DNA of 64,000 bases from Bradyrhizobium sp. 200. GTDB taxonomy: Bacteria > Pseudomonadota > Alphaproteobacteria > Rhizobiales > Xanthobacteraceae. The notes beneath the pieces are model-generated. The model worked only from the letters and a program-made list of their open reading frames with translations, made no database searches and had not been told where the DNA came from. Below, piece after piece: positions 15,606-23,429 of this stretch. Position 1 is the first letter of the stretch; each line of letters starts with the position of its first letter. A program made the translations under genes and the position numbers. Where the stretch lies: the NCBI RefSeq assembly GCF_023100945.1, contig NZ_CP064689.1:9344001-9408000 (forward strand), written 5' to 3'.

Positions 15606-17176
15606 TTTCTGCGGCGACCCACATCGCGCGGCTGGTCCGCGCCGCTTACGTGTTCGCGCGCGAGGGCGTGTTCGGCGTTGTCGATCCAAGCCTGGTGCCG
15701 CCGCCTGGACAACTCGCGCTGCGTCTGGCACGGCTGATCGAACGCCCCGGCGCCAAATCCGGTCCGCGGCTGTCGCGCGCGCTGACGCGGCTCGGCCCCG
15801 CCTACCTCAAGCTCGGCCAGTTTCTGGCGACCCGGCCCGACGTGGTCGGAGTCGCGATGGCGCGCGATCTGGAAGCCCTGCAGGACCGGTTGCCGCCGTT
15901 TTCGCAAGCCGAAGCCGAGGCCGTAATCGCAGCGTCGCTGGAACGCCCTCTGGCTAAAGCGTTTGTCAGCCTCGGCCCGGCGGTCGCCGCCGCCTCGATT
16001 GCCCAGGTGCATCGCGGCGAGGTGGAGCACGACGGCGTACGCAAATCGGTCGCGGTGAAAGTGCTCCGGCCCAATGTCGCATCGCGCTTTCGACGCGATC
16101 TCTCCGACTTCTTCTTCGTCGCGCACAACGCCGAGGCGCATTCGGCCGAAGCGCGGCGGCTGCGGCTGATCGAGGTCATCAATACGATGTCGCGCTCGGT
16201 CGCGATGGAGATGGACCTGCGGCTCGAAGCGGCGGCGCTGTCGGAGATGGCGGAGAACACAAGCGACGACCCGGATTTCCGCGTGCCGACCGTCGACTGG
16301 GACCGCACCACCCACAACGTGTTGACGATGGAGTGGATCGACGGCATCGCGCTGAACGACCACGCGCGCCTCGAGCAATCGCATGTCGACCTGCCCGATC
16401 TCGGCCGCAAGGTGATCCAGAGCTTTCTGCGCCACGCGCTGCGCGACGGCTTCTTCCATGCCGACATGCATCCCGGCAATCTGTTTCTCGACGAGGCCGG
16501 CCGGCTGGTAGCGGTCGATTTCGGCATCATGGGCCGGCTCGGCCTGAAGGAACGGCGCTTCCTTGCGGAGATTCTGCTGGGCTTCATCACGCGCGACTAC
16601 CGCCGCGTCGCCGAGGTGCATTTCGAGGCCGGCTACGTGCCGGGCCATCACTCGGTCGAGAATTTCGCGCAAGCCATCCGCGCCATCGGCGAACCGATCC
16701 ATAATCGCACCGCCGAAGAAATCTCGATGGCCAAGCTCTTGACCCTGCTGCTCGAGGTCACCGGACTGTTCGACATGCAGACCCGGCCCGAGTTGATCTT
16801 GCTGCAGAAAACCATGGTGGTGGTCGAAGGGGTCGCGCGCGGTTTCGATCCGAAGCTGGATATCTGGAAGGTCGCCGATCCCGTGGTGCGCGAATGGATC
16901 GAGCGCAATCTCGGCCCGCTCGGGCGAATTCAGGGCGCGATGACCGGCGCGGGCGAACTCGGCCGCGTGGCGGCGAGCTTGCCTGCGATCGCCTCGCGGG
17001 CGGTTGCCGTGCTCGAGAACATGGAGAAGATGACCCGGGAAGGCCTGACGCTGTCGCCGGAGTCGATTGCCGCCTTGGGCCGCGCTGAAGGCCGCAAGAG
17101 CCGCTGGCGGACGGTGGCGCTCTGGGTCATCGCGGCGACCTTCATCGGGATTCTGGTCGCCATCCGCCAGTTGTGA
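15602..17176 (+). CDS. ubiB: UbiB atypical kinase/ATPase of ubiquinone synthesis
   Basis: This 524-residue ABC1/ADCK protein-kinase-like ATPase assists ubiquinone synthesis at the membrane. The GTG start at 15602 overlaps the ubiE stop and gives normal family length; the longer frame from 15350 runs inside ubiE. Diagnostic motifs are the KxGQ helix ([14 protein letters not shown]), the Ala-rich loop [11 protein letters not shown] that replaces the kinase glycine loop, [11 protein letters not shown] and [12 protein letters not shown] hydrophobic segment at the end (about residues 500-520, [17 protein letters not shown]) anchors it. It is followed within 4 bp by the coaBC operator region. Confidence 0.95.
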
Positions 17177-17206
17177 TTGCAATGCTATCACAATGTGATA
17201 GCATTG
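17177..17206 (+). promoter_or_regulatory. Perfect 12-bp palindrome with FitA-like half-sites over a possible coaBC promoter
   Basis: Arms CAATGCTATCAC (17180-17191) and GTGATAGCATTG (17195-17206) are perfectly complementary around AAT. They contain TGCTATCA and TGATAGCA, half-sites I recall from the Neisseria FitAB operator, spaced 5 bp here and about 12 bp there. A -35-like TTGCAA (17177-17182) and a -10-like TAGCAT (17199-17204), 16 bp apart, fall in the same stretch, so a bound protein would block transcription. The coaBC start codon is 26 bp downstream. Confidence 0.72.
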
Positions 17207-17232
17207 ATTTCATAGCTTGCTGGAGACCTCCC

Positions 17233-18657
17233 ATGGCCAGCCTGACCATCCGAAAACTCGACGAAACCGTCAAAGCCTATCTGCGCCTCCGGTCGGCCGG
17301 GAACGGCCGCTCCGTCGAAGAGGAAGTCCGGGTCATTCTCGGCGAACTGATTCAGGGGCGCCCCGAGCCGGCTGGCGCAACCGCCTCCTCCGCCGACGCT
17401 CCAGCGCAGGCCACGCGGCCCGTCAGCCTCTCCGGCGAACGGAATGTCACCCTGATCATCGGCGGCGGCATCGCCGCCTACAAGGCGCTGGATCTGATCC
17501 GGCGGCTGAAGGAGCGGCACGTCAACGTCCGCTGCGTGCTGACCAAGGCCGCGCAGCAATTCGTCACGCCGCTTTCCGCCAGCGCGTTGTCGCATGAGCG
17601 CGTCTATACGGACCTGTTCGACGCCGAGAGCGAATTCGACGCCGGTCACATCCGGCTCGCGCGCGAGTGCGATCTGATCGTGGTGGCGCCGGCAACCGCC
17701 GACCTGATGGCGAAGATGGCGCAGGGCCATGCCGACGATCTCGCCAGCGCGGTCCTGCTGGCGGCCAACCGCCCGATCCTGCTGGCGCCGGCGATGAACC
17801 CGTTGATGTGGAACAACGCCGCCACCCGCCGCAACGTGCTGCAGCTTCGGCGCGACGGCATCCGCATGATAGGCCCCAACGCCGGCGAAATGGCTGAGTC
17901 CAATGAGGCCGGCGTCGGGCGGATGTCGGAGGCGGTCGAAATCGCGGCCGCTGCTGTCGACATCCTGCGTCCGCCGCGACCGCGCCCGCTCGCAGGCAAG
18001 CGCGTGCTGATCACGGCGGGGCCGACGCATGAGGCGATCGACCCCGTGCGCTATATCGCCAACCGCTCCTCCGGCAAGCAGGGGTTTGCGATCGCCGCCG
18101 CAGCACAGGCTGCGGGCGCCGACGTCACGCTGGTTTCCGGCCCGGTCGAGTTGCGCGATCCCGCGGGCGTCACGGTGATCCGGGTGGAGTCGGCGCGCGA
18201 CATGCTGCACCGGGTGGAGGCCGCCCTGCCGGCCGATATCGCGATCTTCGCCGCCGCCGTTGCCGACTGGCGCGTCGCCAATGAGGGCGAGCAGAAACTG
18301 AAAAAGACTCCTGCCGGCATGCCGCCGCTGCAACTGGTGGAAAACCGCGACATTCTCGCGACGATCTCGAAACTGAAAGACAAGCGCCCGCCGCTGGTGA
18401 TCGGCTTCGCCGCCGAGACCGAGCATCTGATCGACAACGCCAAGGCCAAGATCGCGCGCAAGGGCTGCGACTGGATCGTCGCCAACGACGTTTCGCCCGC
18501 AACCGGCGTGATGGGCGGCGACCGCAACACCGTTCACCTGTTGACGCGCGATGGCGCCAACGAGATCAAGGTTGATTCCTGGCCGGTAATGACCAAGGAA
18601 CAGGTCGCGGCCGAACTGGTGGCGAAGATTGCGAAAACCGTGGAGAACGATGCGTGA
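17233..18657 (+). CDS. coaBC: CoaBC with an N-terminal FitA-like ribbon-helix-helix domain
   Basis: This 474-residue bifunctional enzyme makes phosphopantothenoylcysteine and decarboxylates it to 4'-phosphopantetheine, two steps of CoA synthesis. Residues 1-40 ([14 protein letters not shown]... [15 protein letters not shown]) match the FitA/Arc ribbon-helix-helix fold. A linker runs to about residue 69. The flavin decarboxylase follows ([28 protein letters not shown]), then the synthetase ([25 protein letters not shown] is its conserved core). The E. coli Cys158 flap is replaced ([11 protein letters not shown]). GGAG lies at 17222-17225, 7 nt before the ATG. An upstream GTG at 17173 is disfavoured because it overlaps the palindrome. 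The stop overlaps the dut start by 4 bp. Confidence 0.93.
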
Positions 18658-19112
18658 GCGCGACAGTGAAGGTCGACATCTGCCAATTGCCGCACGGCGA
18701 AGGTCTCGCGCTGCCGGCCTATCAGAGCGCGGACGCCGCCGGGCTCGACCTGCTCGCGGCAGTGCCGGCGGACACGCCCTTGATCCTGCCGCCGGGCAAA
18801 TACGCGATGGTGCCGACCGCGCTCACGATCGCGCTGCCTTCAGGATATGAGGCGCAGGTACGGCCGCGTTCCGGGCTTGCCGCCAAGCACGGCGTTACCG
18901 TGCTGAACTCGCCCGGCACCGTGGATGCGGATTACCGCGGCGAGATCAACGTGCTCCTGATCAACCATGGCGATACGCCATTCCCGATCCGGCGGGGCGA
19001 GCGCATCGCGCAGATGGTGATCGCACCGATCGTGCAGGCCGAACTGGTTCCTGTGGCTTCGCTTACGGCAACCGAGCGCGGTAGCGGCGGCTTTGGATCG
19101 ACTGGGCGCTGA
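18654..19112 (+). CDS. dut: Deoxyuridine 5'-triphosphate nucleotidohydrolase (dUTPase)
   Basis: This 152-residue trimeric dUTPase hydrolyses dUTP to dUMP and pyrophosphate, keeping uracil out of DNA and feeding thymidylate synthesis. All five family motifs can be followed: [31 protein letters not shown] (with the catalytic Asp), [13 protein letters not shown] and the C-terminal lid [11 protein letters not shown]. The GTG start overlaps the coaBC stop (GTGA), so it is probably the last gene of the ubiE-ubiB-coaBC-dut series or of a coaBC-dut unit driven from the palindromic promoter. Confidence 0.97.
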
Positions 19113-19392: not shown

Positions 19393-21912
19393 ATGTCGGG
19401 CGTAGTCGCGGCGATGCGTCGAACCCTGCTGTCGTGCACCTCACTGGCGCGCCACGGCGCGATCGCGCTCGTCATCGCCCTTCCCGCATCGCTGGAACCC
19501 GCTTTGGCCGCTGATTTGACTATCACGCAGACGATTTCCGCTCTATTCGACCTCAACCATCAAGAATTCGCGGCGCTGACGACGGCGCTATCGCTGCTCG
19601 GCTTTACCGTGGTCGCTGCGATCCTGCTGATGCGCACACGCATTCGGGCCACCCGAATGGAACTCGGCCTGCGCTCCGACATTGCCGACCTGCAGGTGCA
19701 GGCCGACCGGCTGCGCGCGCTCCTGTTCGCCGAACCTCAGATCCTGATCGCCTGGGCTGCGGGCGACAACCGGCCCCAGATCAGCGGCGACATCTCGCTT
19801 CTGATCTCGCAAGACGCGATGTCGAATTCACCGCAACGCATCCTCGCCTTTGGAACCTGGCTGCCGCCCGAACCGGCGCTGCAGATGGACCATGCTGTCG
19901 ACGCGCTGCGCGAGGCCGGCGAAGGTTTCCTGCTCAATCTCTCCACCACGAACGGCCGCGCCATCGAAGCGATGGGCCGCGCCATCGGCGGGCAAGCCAT
20001 TGTGCGGATTCGCGAACTCGGCGGGCTTCGCCGTGAACTCGCCGAATCCAATCTCCGCTACAGGACGCTGCTGGAGGAGACCGAGCTGTTGCGCGATTTC
20101 GCCGCCGCAGCGCCCTGGCCGATCTGGGCCAAGAGCGCCGAGGGCAATCTGCGTTACGCCAATGCGGCCTATGTGCGGGCCACCGAAGGCGCAAGCGTCG
20201 CGGATACGATTCGCCGCAACCTCGAACTCTTGGAGAACGACCAGCGCGCCGAGATGGGCCGGGTGCTGATTGACAATTCTACCTTCAGCGCGCGGCTGCC
20301 GATCGTGGTCGGCGGCGAACGGCGCATCTACGATGTTCAGACGCTCAGGCTCGGCGGCGGCAGTGCCGGCATTGCCATCGACGCCAGCGAGGCGACCGCG
20401 CTGCGCGACGCCATGGAGCGGATGACGGAAGCCCATCGCCGCACCCTCGACCAATTGTCATCAGGGGTTGCCGTGTTCGACGGCCAGCGGCGGCTTGCCT
20501 TCTATAATGAATCCTACCGGCGGCTGTGGGGCCTCGATCAGGCCTTCCTCGATTCCAATCCCGACGATTCAAGCGTGCTCGACCGCTTGCGCGCAGCGCG
20601 CAAATTGCCCGAACAGCCCGACTTCCGGGCCTGGAAAGCCAAGCTGCACAATGCCTACCGCGCCGTCGAGCCGGAGAACTACACTTGGTTCCTCCCCGAC
20701 GGCCGCGCGGTCAGCGTCGTCACGACGCCGAACCTTGAAGGCGGCGTCACCTATCTGTTCGACAATGTCACCGAGAGTCTCGATCTCGCGCGCCGCTACG
20801 ACCGGCTGACCCGGGTCCAGCACGAGACGCTCGACAATCTGGCCGAAGCGGTCGCGGTGTTCGGCAGCAATGGCCGCGTGGAACTGTTCAATCCCGCTTT
20901 CGCGAAAATGTGGAAGCTGTCGGCCGAACCGCTCAAGGAGCAGCCCCACATCGAGACCGTGGAAGCCTGGTGCAAGCCGCTGTTCGACGATGCGCTGACC
21001 TGGCGCGCGCTGCGCGAAGCGATCACCGCGATCGAGAACCGGGCGCAGGTGGCGCTGAAGCTCGAGCGCAAGGACGGCAGCGTGCTCGACTGCATGACCA
21101 TGCCGCTGCCCGACGGCGCGACGCTGCTGACCTTCCAGGACATCACCGACACCGAAAATGTCGAGCGCGCGCTGCGCGAACGCAACGAGGCGCTCGAAGC
21201 CGCCGACCAGATGAAGGTGGATTTCGTCCACCACGTGTCCTACGAGCTGCGCGCTCCCCTCACCACCATCATCGGCTTTGCGCATTTCCTCAGCGATCCC
21301 TCGACCGGCCCGCTGACGGCAAAGCAGGCCGAGTATCTCGACTACGTCACCAAATCGACCAACGCGCTGCTCGCGCTCACCAACAACATCCTCGATCTCG
21401 CCACCATCGATGCCGGCGCCATGAAGCTCGAGCTCGGCCCGGTCAATATCGAAAAAGCCATCCAGGCCGCTGCCGAAGGCATCCAGGACCGGCTGGCGAC
21501 CGACCGCATCGAACTCAAGGTCGACATCGATCCCAATATCGGCAACTTCACCGGCGATGAGCGGCGCGTGGTGCAGGTGCTCTATAACCTGCTCGCCAAC
21601 GCCGTCGGATTCTCGCCGCACGATGCCGCGGTCACGATCAGCGCCCAGCGCACCGAGCATCGCGTGATCTTCACCGTCAGCGATTCCGGCCCCGGCATTC
21701 CGGCTGAGGTGAAGGACAAGGTGTTCGACTGGTTCGAGAGCCACTCCCACGGTTCGCGTCACCGCGGCGCGGGCCTCGGCCTGTCGCTGGTGCGCTCCTT
21801 TGTCGAGCTGCATGGCGGCAAGGTGCGCGTCGATTCGGTGGTCGGCAAGGGCACGACGGTCACCTGCGACTTTCCGATCGACCAGAACGCGCACCGCAAC
21901 GCCGCCGAATGA
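19393..21912 (+). CDS. divL: DivL-like sensor pseudo-histidine kinase
   Basis: This 839-residue membrane-anchored protein has an N-terminal signal or membrane segment and a second hydrophobic helix (about residues 60-80, LSLLGFTVVAAILLM). Several PAS-like modules follow (AAPWPIWAKSAEGNLRYANAAY, GVAVFDGQRRLAFYNESY and AVAVFGSNGRVELFNPAF). The dimerisation domain has Tyr in place of the phospho-accepting His: HVSYELRAPLTTI, Y617. The ATPase domain keeps NLLANAVGFS, DSGPGIP and GAGLGLSL. In Caulobacter, DivL with this Tyr substitution controls the CckA-ChpT-CtrA cell-cycle pathway. The ATG at 19393 follows GGGG; a TTG at 19381 is also open. The stop overlaps tsaE (ATGA). Confidence 0.9.
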   Translation: MSGVVAAMRRTLLSCTSLARHGAIALVIALPASLEPALAADLTITQTISALFDLNHQEFAALTTALSLLGFTVVAAILLMRTRIRATRMELGLRSDIADLQVQADRLRALLFAEPQILIAWAAGDNRPQISGDISLLISQDAMSNSPQRILAFGTWLPPEPALQMDHAVDALREAGEGFLLNLSTTNGRAIEAMGRAIGGQAIVRIRELGGLRRELAESNLRYRTLLEETELLRDFAAAAPWPIWAKSAEGNLRYANAAYVRATEGASVADTIRRNLELLENDQRAEMGRVLIDNSTFSARLPIVVGGERRIYDVQTLRLGGGSAGIAIDASEATALRDAMERMTEAHRRTLDQLSSGVAVFDGQRRLAFYNESYRRLWGLDQAFLDSNPDDSSVLDRLRAARKLPEQPDFRAWKAKLHNAYRAVEPENYTWFLPDGRAVSVVTTPNLEGGVTYLFDNVTESLDLARRYDRLTRVQHETLDNLAEAVAVFGSNGRVELFNPAFAKMWKLSAEPLKEQPHIETVEAWCKPLFDDALTWRALREAITAIENRAQVALKLERKDGSVLDCMTMPLPDGATLLTFQDITDTENVERALRERNEALEAADQMKVDFVHHVSYELRAPLTTIIGFAHFLSDPSTGPLTAKQAEYLDYVTKSTNALLALTNNILDLATIDAGAMKLELGPVNIEKAIQAAAEGIQDRLATDRIELKVDIDPNIGNFTGDERRVVQVLYNLLANAVGFSPHDAAVTISAQRTEHRVIFTVSDSGPGIPAEVKDKVFDWFESHSHGSRHRGAGLGLSLVRSFVELHGGKVRVDSVVGKGTTVTCDFPIDQNAHRNAAE

Positions 21913-23429
21913 CCGCGCCCGCGACATTTACGGTAGCGCTGGCGAACGAGACGGCGACGGCGCATCTGATGGCAGACCTCGCGCTGCTGGTCGGTCCGGG
22001 CGACGTCATCACGCTCTCGGGCGATCTCGGCGCGGGCAAGACCGCGGCGGCGCGCGCCATGATCCGCTATCTCGCCAACGATCCCGTGCTGGAAGTGCCA
22101 AGCCCGACCTTCACGCTGGCGCAGAGCTACGATTTGCCGTTTCCGCTTCTCCATGCCGATCTCTATCGGATCAACGATTCGAGCGAGCTGGAGGAAATCG
22201 GATTGTCGCCGCTGCCGGATGGCACGCTGGCGCTGATCGAATGGCCGGAGCGCGCCCCCGATGCGCTGCCTGGAGATCGCATCGACATCGCTTTCAGCCA
22301 TCGCCCGGCGCTCGGGTCCACCGCGCGCGCGGCCGAAATCACCGGCCATGGCAAGGCGGCGGCGCAGGTGACGCGATTGAGCGGCTTGCGAAAGTTTCTC
22401 AGCGATGCCGGCTTCCTGGATGCGGCGCGCGAGCGCATGCCCGGCGACGCCTCGACGCGCTCCTATGCGCGGCTGGTCCGCGACGACGGCACGTCGATCC
22501 TGATGAATTCGCCGCGCCGTCCGGATGGACCGGCGATCTACAACGGAATGTCCTACAGTGCGGCGGTTCATCTCGCCGAGGACGTCAAGCCTTTCGTCGC
22601 CATCGACAATGGCCTGCGCGCGCACGGCTTCTCGGCGCCCGCCATTCGCCACGCCGATCTGGATTCCGGTTTCCTGATCACCGAGGATTTCGGCAGCGCG
22701 AGCATCGTCGAAGGCGACCCGCCGCAGCCGATCGCCGAGCGCTATGAGGCGGCGACCGACATGCTGGCGGAGCTGCATCGCAAGCCCCTGCCCGAAACGG
22801 CGCCGCTGGAGCCGCAGCGCTCATACCAAATTCCGGTCTATGAAATCGATGCATGGCTGGTCGAGGTCGGCCTGATGCTCGAATGGTATCTGCCGGACCG
22901 CGGCGCCGACGTCAGCCAGCAACGGCGCGACGAGTTCGTCGCGATGTGGCGAACGCTGCTGGAAAAGCCGGCGGCTGCGCCGCGAACCTGGGTGATGCGG
23001 GATTTTCATTCGCCCAACATCATCTGGCTCGGCGACCGCACGGGGATCTTGCGCGTCGGGATCATCGACTTCCAGGATGCCGGGCTTGGCCCCGCCGCCT
23101 ACGATCTGGTGTCGCTGCTGCAGGACGCGCGGATCGACGTTCCCGAACAGCTCGAATTGACGCTTCTGACTCGCTACATCAAGGCGCGCCGCGCGGCGGA
23201 TGGTCAGTTCGATCCGGCCGGCTTCGCCGAGCTTTACGCCATCATGTCGGCGCAGCGGAATACCCGACTGCTCGGCACCTTCGCCCGGCTCAACCGGCGC
23301 GACGGCAAGCCGCAATATCTGCGCCACCAGCCCCGGATCTGGACCTACCTGAACCGTTCGCTGGCGCATCCGGCGCTCTCGGCATTTCGCGATTGGTATG
23401 CCGCCAACGTGCCGCCGCCGGGCGCCTGA
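21909..23429 (+). CDS. tsaE: TsaE-AmgK fusion: tRNA t6A ATPase plus sugar kinase
   Basis: This is a 506-residue two-domain protein. Residues 1 to about 150 are TsaE, the ATPase of the complex that makes N6-threonylcarbamoyladenosine at tRNA position 37; its P-loop is GDLGAGKT (38-45), with PSPTFTLAQSY and HADLYRI further on. From about residue 165 the protein is an aminoglycoside-phosphotransferase-like kinase of the AmgK type, with catalytic D365 (MRDFHSPNIIW) and metal-binding D387 (IIDFQDAGLGPAAYDL). AmgK phosphorylates N-acetylmuramate in cell-wall recycling, and its partner MurU is encoded just downstream. The ATG overlaps the divL stop by 4 bp. The fusion is known in Rhizobiales. Confidence 0.93.
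   Translation: MTAPATFTVALANETATAHLMADLALLVGPGDVITLSGDLGAGKTAAARAMIRYLANDPVLEVPSPTFTLAQSYDLPFPLLHADLYRINDSSELEEIGLSPLPDGTLALIEWPERAPDALPGDRIDIAFSHRPALGSTARAAEITGHGKAAAQVTRLSGLRKFLSDAGFLDAARERMPGDASTRSYARLVRDDGTSILMNSPRRPDGPAIYNGMSYSAAVHLAEDVKPFVAIDNGLRAHGFSAPAIRHADLDSGFLITEDFGSASIVEGDPPQPIAERYEAATDMLAELHRKPLPETAPLEPQRSYQIPVYEIDAWLVEVGLMLEWYLPDRGADVSQQRRDEFVAMWRTLLEKPAAAPRTWVMRDFHSPNIIWLGDRTGILRVGIIDFQDAGLGPAAYDLVSLLQDARIDVPEQLELTLLTRYIKARRAADGQFDPAGFAELYAIMSAQRNTRLLGTFARLNRRDGKPQYLRHQPRIWTYLNRSLAHPALSAFRDWYAANVPPPGA

Follow-up and report, generated by a model that had tools for sequence, protein, structure and literature searches.

A FitA-type ribbon-helix-helix domain fused to CoaBC in Bradyrhizobium and several other Rhizobiales, and its probable role in autogenous repression

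The nearest working analogue of the protein described here is PutA, a metabolic flavoenzyme whose N-terminal ribbon-helix-helix (RHH) domain represses its own gene, as PMC5293562 describes. Our subject is the coaBC gene of Bradyrhizobium sp. 200, which lies in the 64,000-nucleotide stretch that we analysed and call the window (contig NZ_CP064689.1, positions 9,344,001 to 9,408,000, forward strand). The PutA DNA-binding domain is among the Foldseek matches of the RHH part of the CoaBC model; PutA is an unrelated enzyme of a catabolic pathway, whereas the CoaBC domain belongs to the FitA-antitoxin Pfam family PF22513. The toxin-antitoxin modules FitAB and VapBC share with the locus their RHH sequence family and type of half-site, and 17 related loci have an RHH + PIN gene pair upstream of coaBC. 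Unlike these modules, coaBC in the window has neither a toxin gene nor a toxin-binding tail, and its sites lie 9 bp apart, whereas at unlinked FitA-like loci the sites are 20 bp apart in 9/26 (counted from the site listing) and a 9-bp pair occurs in 7/26. Relative to canonical CoaBC (TIGR00521), the window protein has about 66 additional residues, which form the RHH domain and a linker. In mycobacteria, CoaBC forms a dodecamer around a CoaC core, and CoA and its thioesters inhibit the enzyme of M. tuberculosis (PMC7794376). Among open-licence papers, we found none that describes an RHH-CoaBC fusion or that mentions CoaBC together with ribbon-helix-helix; Pfam annotation of the proteins does show the fusion, which puts the architecture on record though no description was found.

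We consider it probable (roughly 0.8) that CoaBC of Bradyrhizobium and of several other Rhizobiales is an autogenous repressor that acts through a captured FitAB/VapBC-type antitoxin head and operator. RHH dimers on the CoaBC oligomer would bind tandem 8-bp TGMNNKCA sites, predicted to overlie the coaBC-dut promoter at its -35/-10 region, and plentiful CoaBC would then keep RNA polymerase off. Such occlusion by its own product would amount to negative feedback on coaBC and, since the dut start overlaps the coaBC stop, on dut as well. Twelve RHH chains could pair into six DNA-binding dimers per CoaBC particle. The RHH domain and operator would derive from a FitAB/VapBC-type module that once lay between ubiB and coaBC, and loss of the toxin gene would have left the antitoxin DNA-binding head on the enzyme. 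DNA binding, repression, and the oligomer arrangement of RHH-CoaBC are inferred; the sequence itself offers an RHH domain and a metabolic enzyme on one chain, with a matching candidate operator at their own promoter. Self-repression by a recruited antitoxin domain had been proposed in an earlier note on this DNA, and it now has strong comparative support, because half-sites track the domain across genera and relatives carry a module at the same place. If true, RHH-CoaBC would be a second, independent RHH enzyme-repressor after PutA, this one in a biosynthetic pathway. It would trace a route from a toxin-antitoxin module to ordinary gene regulation, in which the module abuts or overlaps an enzyme gene, the toxin is lost, and head and operator are kept, and it would be a means of controlling coenzyme A synthesis in bacteria that count nitrogen-fixing symbionts among their members.

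The ORF list of the window gives the gene row ubiE, ubiB, coaBC, and dut on the + strand, where ubiE and ubiB are named from translations read by eye and coaBC and dut from Pfam. The features of the coaBC-dut segment are as follows.

17222..17226, + strand: candidate ribosome-binding site GGAGA, 6 bp 5' of the ATG (by eye)
17233..18657, + strand: coaBC, RHH-CoaC-CoaB, 474 aa, ATG start at 17233 (Pfam, TIGR00521)
17236..17346, + strand: FitA-type RHH domain, aa 2-38 (PF22513 profile, structure model)
17356..17430, + strand: Ala/Pro-rich linker, variable, aa 42-66, no recognisable toxin-binding tail
17443..17934, + strand: CoaC domain (phosphopantothenoylcysteine decarboxylase), aa 71-234 (Pfam, TIGR00521)
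17989..18543, + strand: CoaB domain (phosphopantothenate-cysteine ligase), aa 253-437 (Pfam, TIGR00521)
18654..19112, + strand: dut (dUTPase), GTG start overlapping the coaBC stop (ORF list, Pfam)

In the ORF list, the coaBC frame is given from an earlier GTG. The whole protein scores 394.7 bits against the TIGR00521 equivalog (cut-off 219.7) with both enzyme domains present, and coaBC and dut are probably co-transcribed. Window translations reveal no PIN gene adjoining coaBC, as the earlier note had said; the neighbours are ubiB upstream and dut downstream. Elsewhere in the window, 21909-23429 is a 506-residue ORF that by eye resembles TsaE plus an aminoglycoside-phosphotransferase-type kinase.

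Residues 2-38 of CoaBC match PF22513 (FitA-like_RHH) in Pfam with an E of 2.8e-14 and 53.2 bits against a cut-off of 27, and the closest solved sequences are the FitA chains of 2h1o and 2bsq (E about 0.01). The AlphaFold model of aa 1-66 contains helices at 11-24 and 28-42 with block means of 89-92 pLDDT; this monomer model does not show the RHH beta strand, a feature that arises on dimerisation. Its top Foldseek match in the PDB is 2bsq, FitAB on DNA (probability 1.00, rmsd 1.2, E 0.11), CopG and Arc come next, and the PutA DNA-binding domain ranks 13th; no PDB match reaches E <= 0.001 because the piece is short. Profile, two-helix model, and top Foldseek match thus agree with the assignment of the N-terminus as a FitA-type RHH, and structure prediction, named beforehand as a check on whether residues 1-40 would fail as an RHH, models the RHH helices with high confidence. 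T5, R7, L17, R18, S27, and E29 are invariant among 15/15 fused RHH domains, R7 presumably being the DNA-contacting arginine. The RHH codons are under purifying selection, with a dN/dS of 0.17 vs 0.14 for CoaC in 10 Bradyrhizobium-group sequences and of 0.15 in 18 other fusions.

The segment that joins this domain to the enzyme is far less constant: its length and letters vary between fusions, and aa 43-65 of the full-length model have very low confidence, as expected of a disordered linker. By inspection, the toxin-neutralising C-terminal tail was not found in the window or the other Bradyrhizobium-group fusions, where an Ala/Pro-rich linker replaces it. These properties bear on the possibility that CoaBC is a metabolite-gated trigger enzyme, with repression switched by CoA, acyl-CoA, CTP, 4'-phosphopantothenate, or flavin state through the CoaBC dodecamer. 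Such gating would suit the dodecamers of M. tuberculosis and M. smegmatis CoaBC (PMC7794376). Proline and flavin state also decide whether PutA sits on DNA as a repressor or on the membrane as an enzyme, yet its reduction by proline cuts DNA affinity 2-fold only (PMC5293562). A variable, predicted disordered linker argues against tight allosteric coupling, and we regard gating as conceivable and rather unlikely. The earlier note's suggestion that CoaBC senses its substrate, product, or assembly state finds no support here.

For CoaBC as a plain autogenous repressor, the predicted targets are four sites between the end of ubiB and the start of coaBC (no strand assigned).

17174..17181: predicted operator site 1, TGATTGCA, overlapping the ubiB stop codon, 9 bp from site 2
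17183..17190: predicted operator site 2, TGCTATCA (TGMNNKCA scan)
17196..17203: predicted operator site 3, TGATAGCA (TGMNNKCA scan)
17205..17212: predicted operator site 4, TGATTTCA, 9 bp from site 3
17180..17206: perfect dyad of the earlier note, middle part of the four-site array (sequence)

The dyad, CAATGCTATCACA-A-TGTGATAGCATTG, has perfect 13-bp arms around one central base and ends 26 bp 5' of the ATG; its perfection and its distance to the start had been described correctly, and the arms are 13 bp long, not 12. It corresponds to the inner two sites and the stretch between them. As TGCTATCA-N5-TGATAGCA, it occurs once in the 64-kb window at <=3 mismatches (0.08 expected), and a scan of the 9.49-Mb genome for further copies, which the earlier note had proposed, returned the single place at coaBC at <=2 mismatches. 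The array itself starts at 17174, 17183, 17196, and 17205, giving two 9-bp pairs with 22 bp between pairs. The motif TGMNNKCA was derived by aligning the upstream regions of related loci side by side; in IUPAC letters it reads the same on both strands, as would suit a single RHH dimer, and just two 9-bp pairs of it exist across the 64-kb window, both at coaBC. The middle sites vary within the Bradyrhizobium group (TGATATCA/TGATATCA, TGCCAGCA/TGCTAGCA, TGCAATCA/TGATAGCA), which undoes the proposal that the palindrome is the operator unit; as a conserved operator, the exact palindrome was rejected, not being kept even within the genus. The aligned loci suggest instead that the recognised unit is the 8-bp TGMNNKCA, in tandem at 9 bp. 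The four-site form belongs to the Bradyrhizobium group, and most Mesorhizobium, Phyllobacterium, and Brucella-type fusions have one pair plus a site at the start codon.

A site falls within the last 10 bp before the ATG in 19/36 fused loci. In most fusions of Mesorhizobium, Phyllobacterium, Zhengella, and Brucella haematophila, TGCAATCA abuts the start codon, at the expected ribosome-binding site, and a site so placed could possibly control translation as well.

Two candidate promoter boxes in the window fall within the array, both from a relaxed, post hoc pattern and with the strict scan negative.

17177..17182, + strand: candidate -35 box TTGCAA
17199..17204, + strand: candidate -10 box TAGCAT, spacer 16 bp

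A strict sigma-70 scan of the window found no promoter. Of the relaxed patterns, both written post hoc with the sequences already seen, TTGCAn-N16/17-TA[GT]CA[AT] lies over the sites in 10/10 Bradyrhizobium-group loci (0/2000 shuffles) and TTGnnn-N17-TATCAT, at 16-18 bp spacing, in 14/14 Mesorhizobium type-A loci (5/2800 shuffles). Possible -35/-10 boxes, which the earlier note had seen in the same stretch as the dyad, are recovered with the relaxed post hoc pattern, in 10/10 loci, and not with the strict one. A first Mesorhizobium type-A pattern with other spacing had matched 0/14 loci.

For the comparison across genomes, 114 coaBC loci (34 chosen from the order search and 80 named) were run against purpose-built profiles, and 112 were classified: coaBC is fused in 33, unfused and preceded by one or more RHH genes in 17, and without RHH in 62. 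Because loci were picked, not sampled evenly, these counts are no prevalences: the 34 order loci were hand-picked (15 fused, 7 module-bearing, and 12 with neither, these 12 from part of the listing), and the 80 named loci are the best 80 of 564 candidates from one query. The 62 include the same-record pairs L074/L123 and L077/L133, so that 60 are distinct, as well as an XRE fusion (L071) and a decayed module (L098). Counts over 36 fused loci add the window, L100, and L101 to the 33; earlier counts leave out L100 and L101. RHH candidates L044, L050-L054, and L056-L060 stand outside every coaBC count (the RHH gene L051 belongs to G034, which enters the counts as L063). The 26 unlinked RHH loci include L012 and L055, and L079 is in no class.

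The half-site of the earlier note, the only test that used a prior motif, was found at >=7/8 letters within 130 bp in 33/33 fused, 16/17 separate-RHH, and 6/62 RHH-less loci, against 6-7% of mono-nucleotide shuffles. Comparing sites with domain across genomes, as that note had recommended, thus shows the half-site following the domain. For TGMNNKCA, which was built from the loci on which it is counted, at least two sites are present in 35/36 fused, 16/17 separate-RHH, and 2/62 RHH-less loci (dinucleotide shuffles 8%, 7%, and 1%, respectively, excluding L100 and L101). The 9-bp pair is present in 33/36, 14/17, and 0/62, the last figure still 0/62 when the region is widened to 400 bp; it is missing from L039, L049, and L104 among the fused loci and from L061, L063, and L147 among the module loci. 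The commonest site spacing is 9 bp, with 39 site pairs in 34 fused loci and 24 in the 17 separate-RHH loci. L039 (G164) is the fused locus with one site only, and the two RHH-less loci with at least two sites, L076 and L150, have no 9-bp pair. As a separate observation, G164 is a 1.5-Mb genome of family f24, so small a genome having retained RHH-CoaBC, with one TGCTATCA site before it.

Relatedness was taken into account with a tree of 77 rows, from which 36 RHH-less loci (L122-L146, L148-L158) were left out. Its strongly supported branches yield 4 independent RHH-differing pairs; an average of 2.8 are in agreement and none is opposed, so that p cannot fall below 0.25. With related loci and just 4 supported comparisons the association cannot reach significance, and its direction is favourable. 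The best tree requires 11 changes for the presence of RHH and likewise 11 for that of the sites. Sixteen of the 26 unlinked FitA-like antitoxin loci also have at least two sites, as in L013 with TGATAGCA at -57 and TGCTATCA at -37, an example of the 20-bp spacing; with the spacing counts given above, this makes the half-site common to ordinary FitA-type antitoxin genes, usually in a different geometry. According to the earlier note, the half-sites are those of the Neisseria FitAB operator, with a spacing there of about 12 vs 5 bp here; a search of open-licence papers for these operator letters in print found no relevant paper.

Retention of the sites also weighs on whether the RHH domain mainly oligomerises or stabilises CoaBC, with the upstream sites a relic of a former toxin-antitoxin promoter, which we consider unlikely. 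Relic-like sites do exist: L076 has two sites without RHH, and they may be a relic because its tree sister L066 carries an RHH-PIN module. Against this stand the at least two sites kept in 35/36 fused loci and the invariance of T5 and R7. Mycobacterial CoaBC is not known to have an RHH domain. It is dodecameric (PMC7794376), which also speaks against an oligomerising role, while the RHH domain of PutA does mediate its dimerisation (PMC5293562). It is very improbable that a stand-alone FitA-like antitoxin is the true repressor and the CoaBC domain idle, since the one other PF22513 match of the genome (L003) is a divergent gene of 34.5 bits with no TGMNNKCA in the 130 bp before it.

The fused form is found in 16/297 genomes of the order at 111-139 bits, the next match, at 64 bits, not covering the RHH part. 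The window's family supplies 10 of the 16, out of its 11 genomes, family f24 supplies 5, and f16 the remaining one; f24 is Rhizobiaceae-type, since two of its loci coincide exactly with named records, Rhizobium croatiense being one. No fusion was found outside the order, as the 2/385 class genomes that match are that of the window and another from the genus, at a cut-off of 1e-18 that could miss divergent fusions. A protein search with aa 1-66 gave 1702 matching proteins; among the matches listed, 120, all have PF22513 and a CoaC domain, and some short ones lack the CoaB domain.

An RHH + PIN pair lies directly 5' of an unfused coaBC in 17/112 classified loci (L061-L067, L086, L088, L091, L095, L096, L106, L110, L121, L147, and L159), with two RHH genes in a row in L065, L086, L088, and L110 and one in the others. 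The ORF between RHH and coaBC has 133-149 residues in all 17; 8/17 match a purpose-built PIN profile, Pfam finds PIN in both ORFs scanned (L110 and L121, one per type), and the remainder are PIN by eye. The FitB-like type, likewise assigned by eye, overlaps the coaBC start with its stop by 4 nt (8/17 loci), and the VapC-like type lies 8-25 nt before coaBC (9/17 loci). This leaves little room for a separate coaBC promoter, so that in these species the module promoter presumably drives coaBC. Within the order sample, the modules came to light by hand comparison, as stand-alone RHH genes 0.5-0.8 kb before an unfused coaBC in at least 7 genomes.

Mesorhizobium has all states: fused, with module, and without. 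The module locus of Mesorhizobium sp. L2C084A000 (L091) and the fused locus of G209 (L037) align through the promoter, the sites, and the antitoxin to EILALGR, where L037 is 465 nt shorter, the PIN gene is missing, and the frame enters the codons immediately 5' of the coaBC start. Between the two loci the RHH domain is 90% identical, and L037 retains part of the antitoxin tail. From this alignment, the Mesorhizobium-type fusion in L037 looks like the product of toxin-gene loss from such an operon. It is hardly credible that the fused domain still serves as antitoxin or immunity protein against FitB/VapC-type toxins: its likely antitoxin origin and the tail part in L037 would fit, but the window and other Bradyrhizobium-group fusions have the Ala/Pro-rich linker in place of the tail, and no PIN gene adjoins coaBC in the window.

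Decay of a module is seen in Pseudaminobacter arsenicus (L098), where at about 2350-2500 a broken RHH piece and then a PIN-frame tail precede coaBC. In an RHH tree, weak with its 39 residues, 31 fused rows cluster (SH-aLRT 81), G261 and G164 fall apart, and L037 groups with the L091 antitoxin; the L037 fusion looks independent in origin. On the CoaBC tree the fused label has to change 10 times, and starred branches force 4 or more of these changes. The widespread fused form (Bradyrhizobium, Mesorhizobium type A, Phyllobacterium, Brucella haematophila, and Zhengella) may go back to one old fusion, spread by descent or exchange, or to several, and the short RHH tree weakly favours a single cluster. 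In the window's own family, we saw no module before coaBC, and its sole unfused genome, G077, is without one, so the route is read by analogy: the Bradyrhizobium fusion would have arisen as that of L037 did.

CoaBC of G063 (family f16) carries a different N-terminal domain, HTH_3/XRE (26.3 bits, cut-off 23). Its XRE-CoaBC gene is at L071:1420-2847, preceded by two GGATATATCCA palindromes at 1385-1395 and 1404-1414, 19 bp apart, the last of which ends 5 bases before the ATG. Family f16 also has the RHH-fused G261 and the module-bearing G158. Among the 28 genomes of G063's family, none but G063 has XRE-CoaBC, and the HTH_3/XRE-CoaBC architecture is common to 11 protein clusters; its likeness to RHH-CoaBC is apparent convergence. 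Tentatively, and with less confidence than not, coaBC may be a recurrent site at which antitoxin-type regulators turn into parts of a self-repressing essential enzyme. FitA-type RHH would have been so used two times or more (in the widespread form and, separately, in the Mesorhizobium-type G209) and XRE once, each with its own operators, with toxin-antitoxin-coaBC operons as starting material and the dodecamer as a CoA-status-responsive transcription factor. Fusion at this locus can also extend to the operon partner: the 623-residue protein P0022 joins RHH, CoaC, CoaB, and dUTPase in a single chain.
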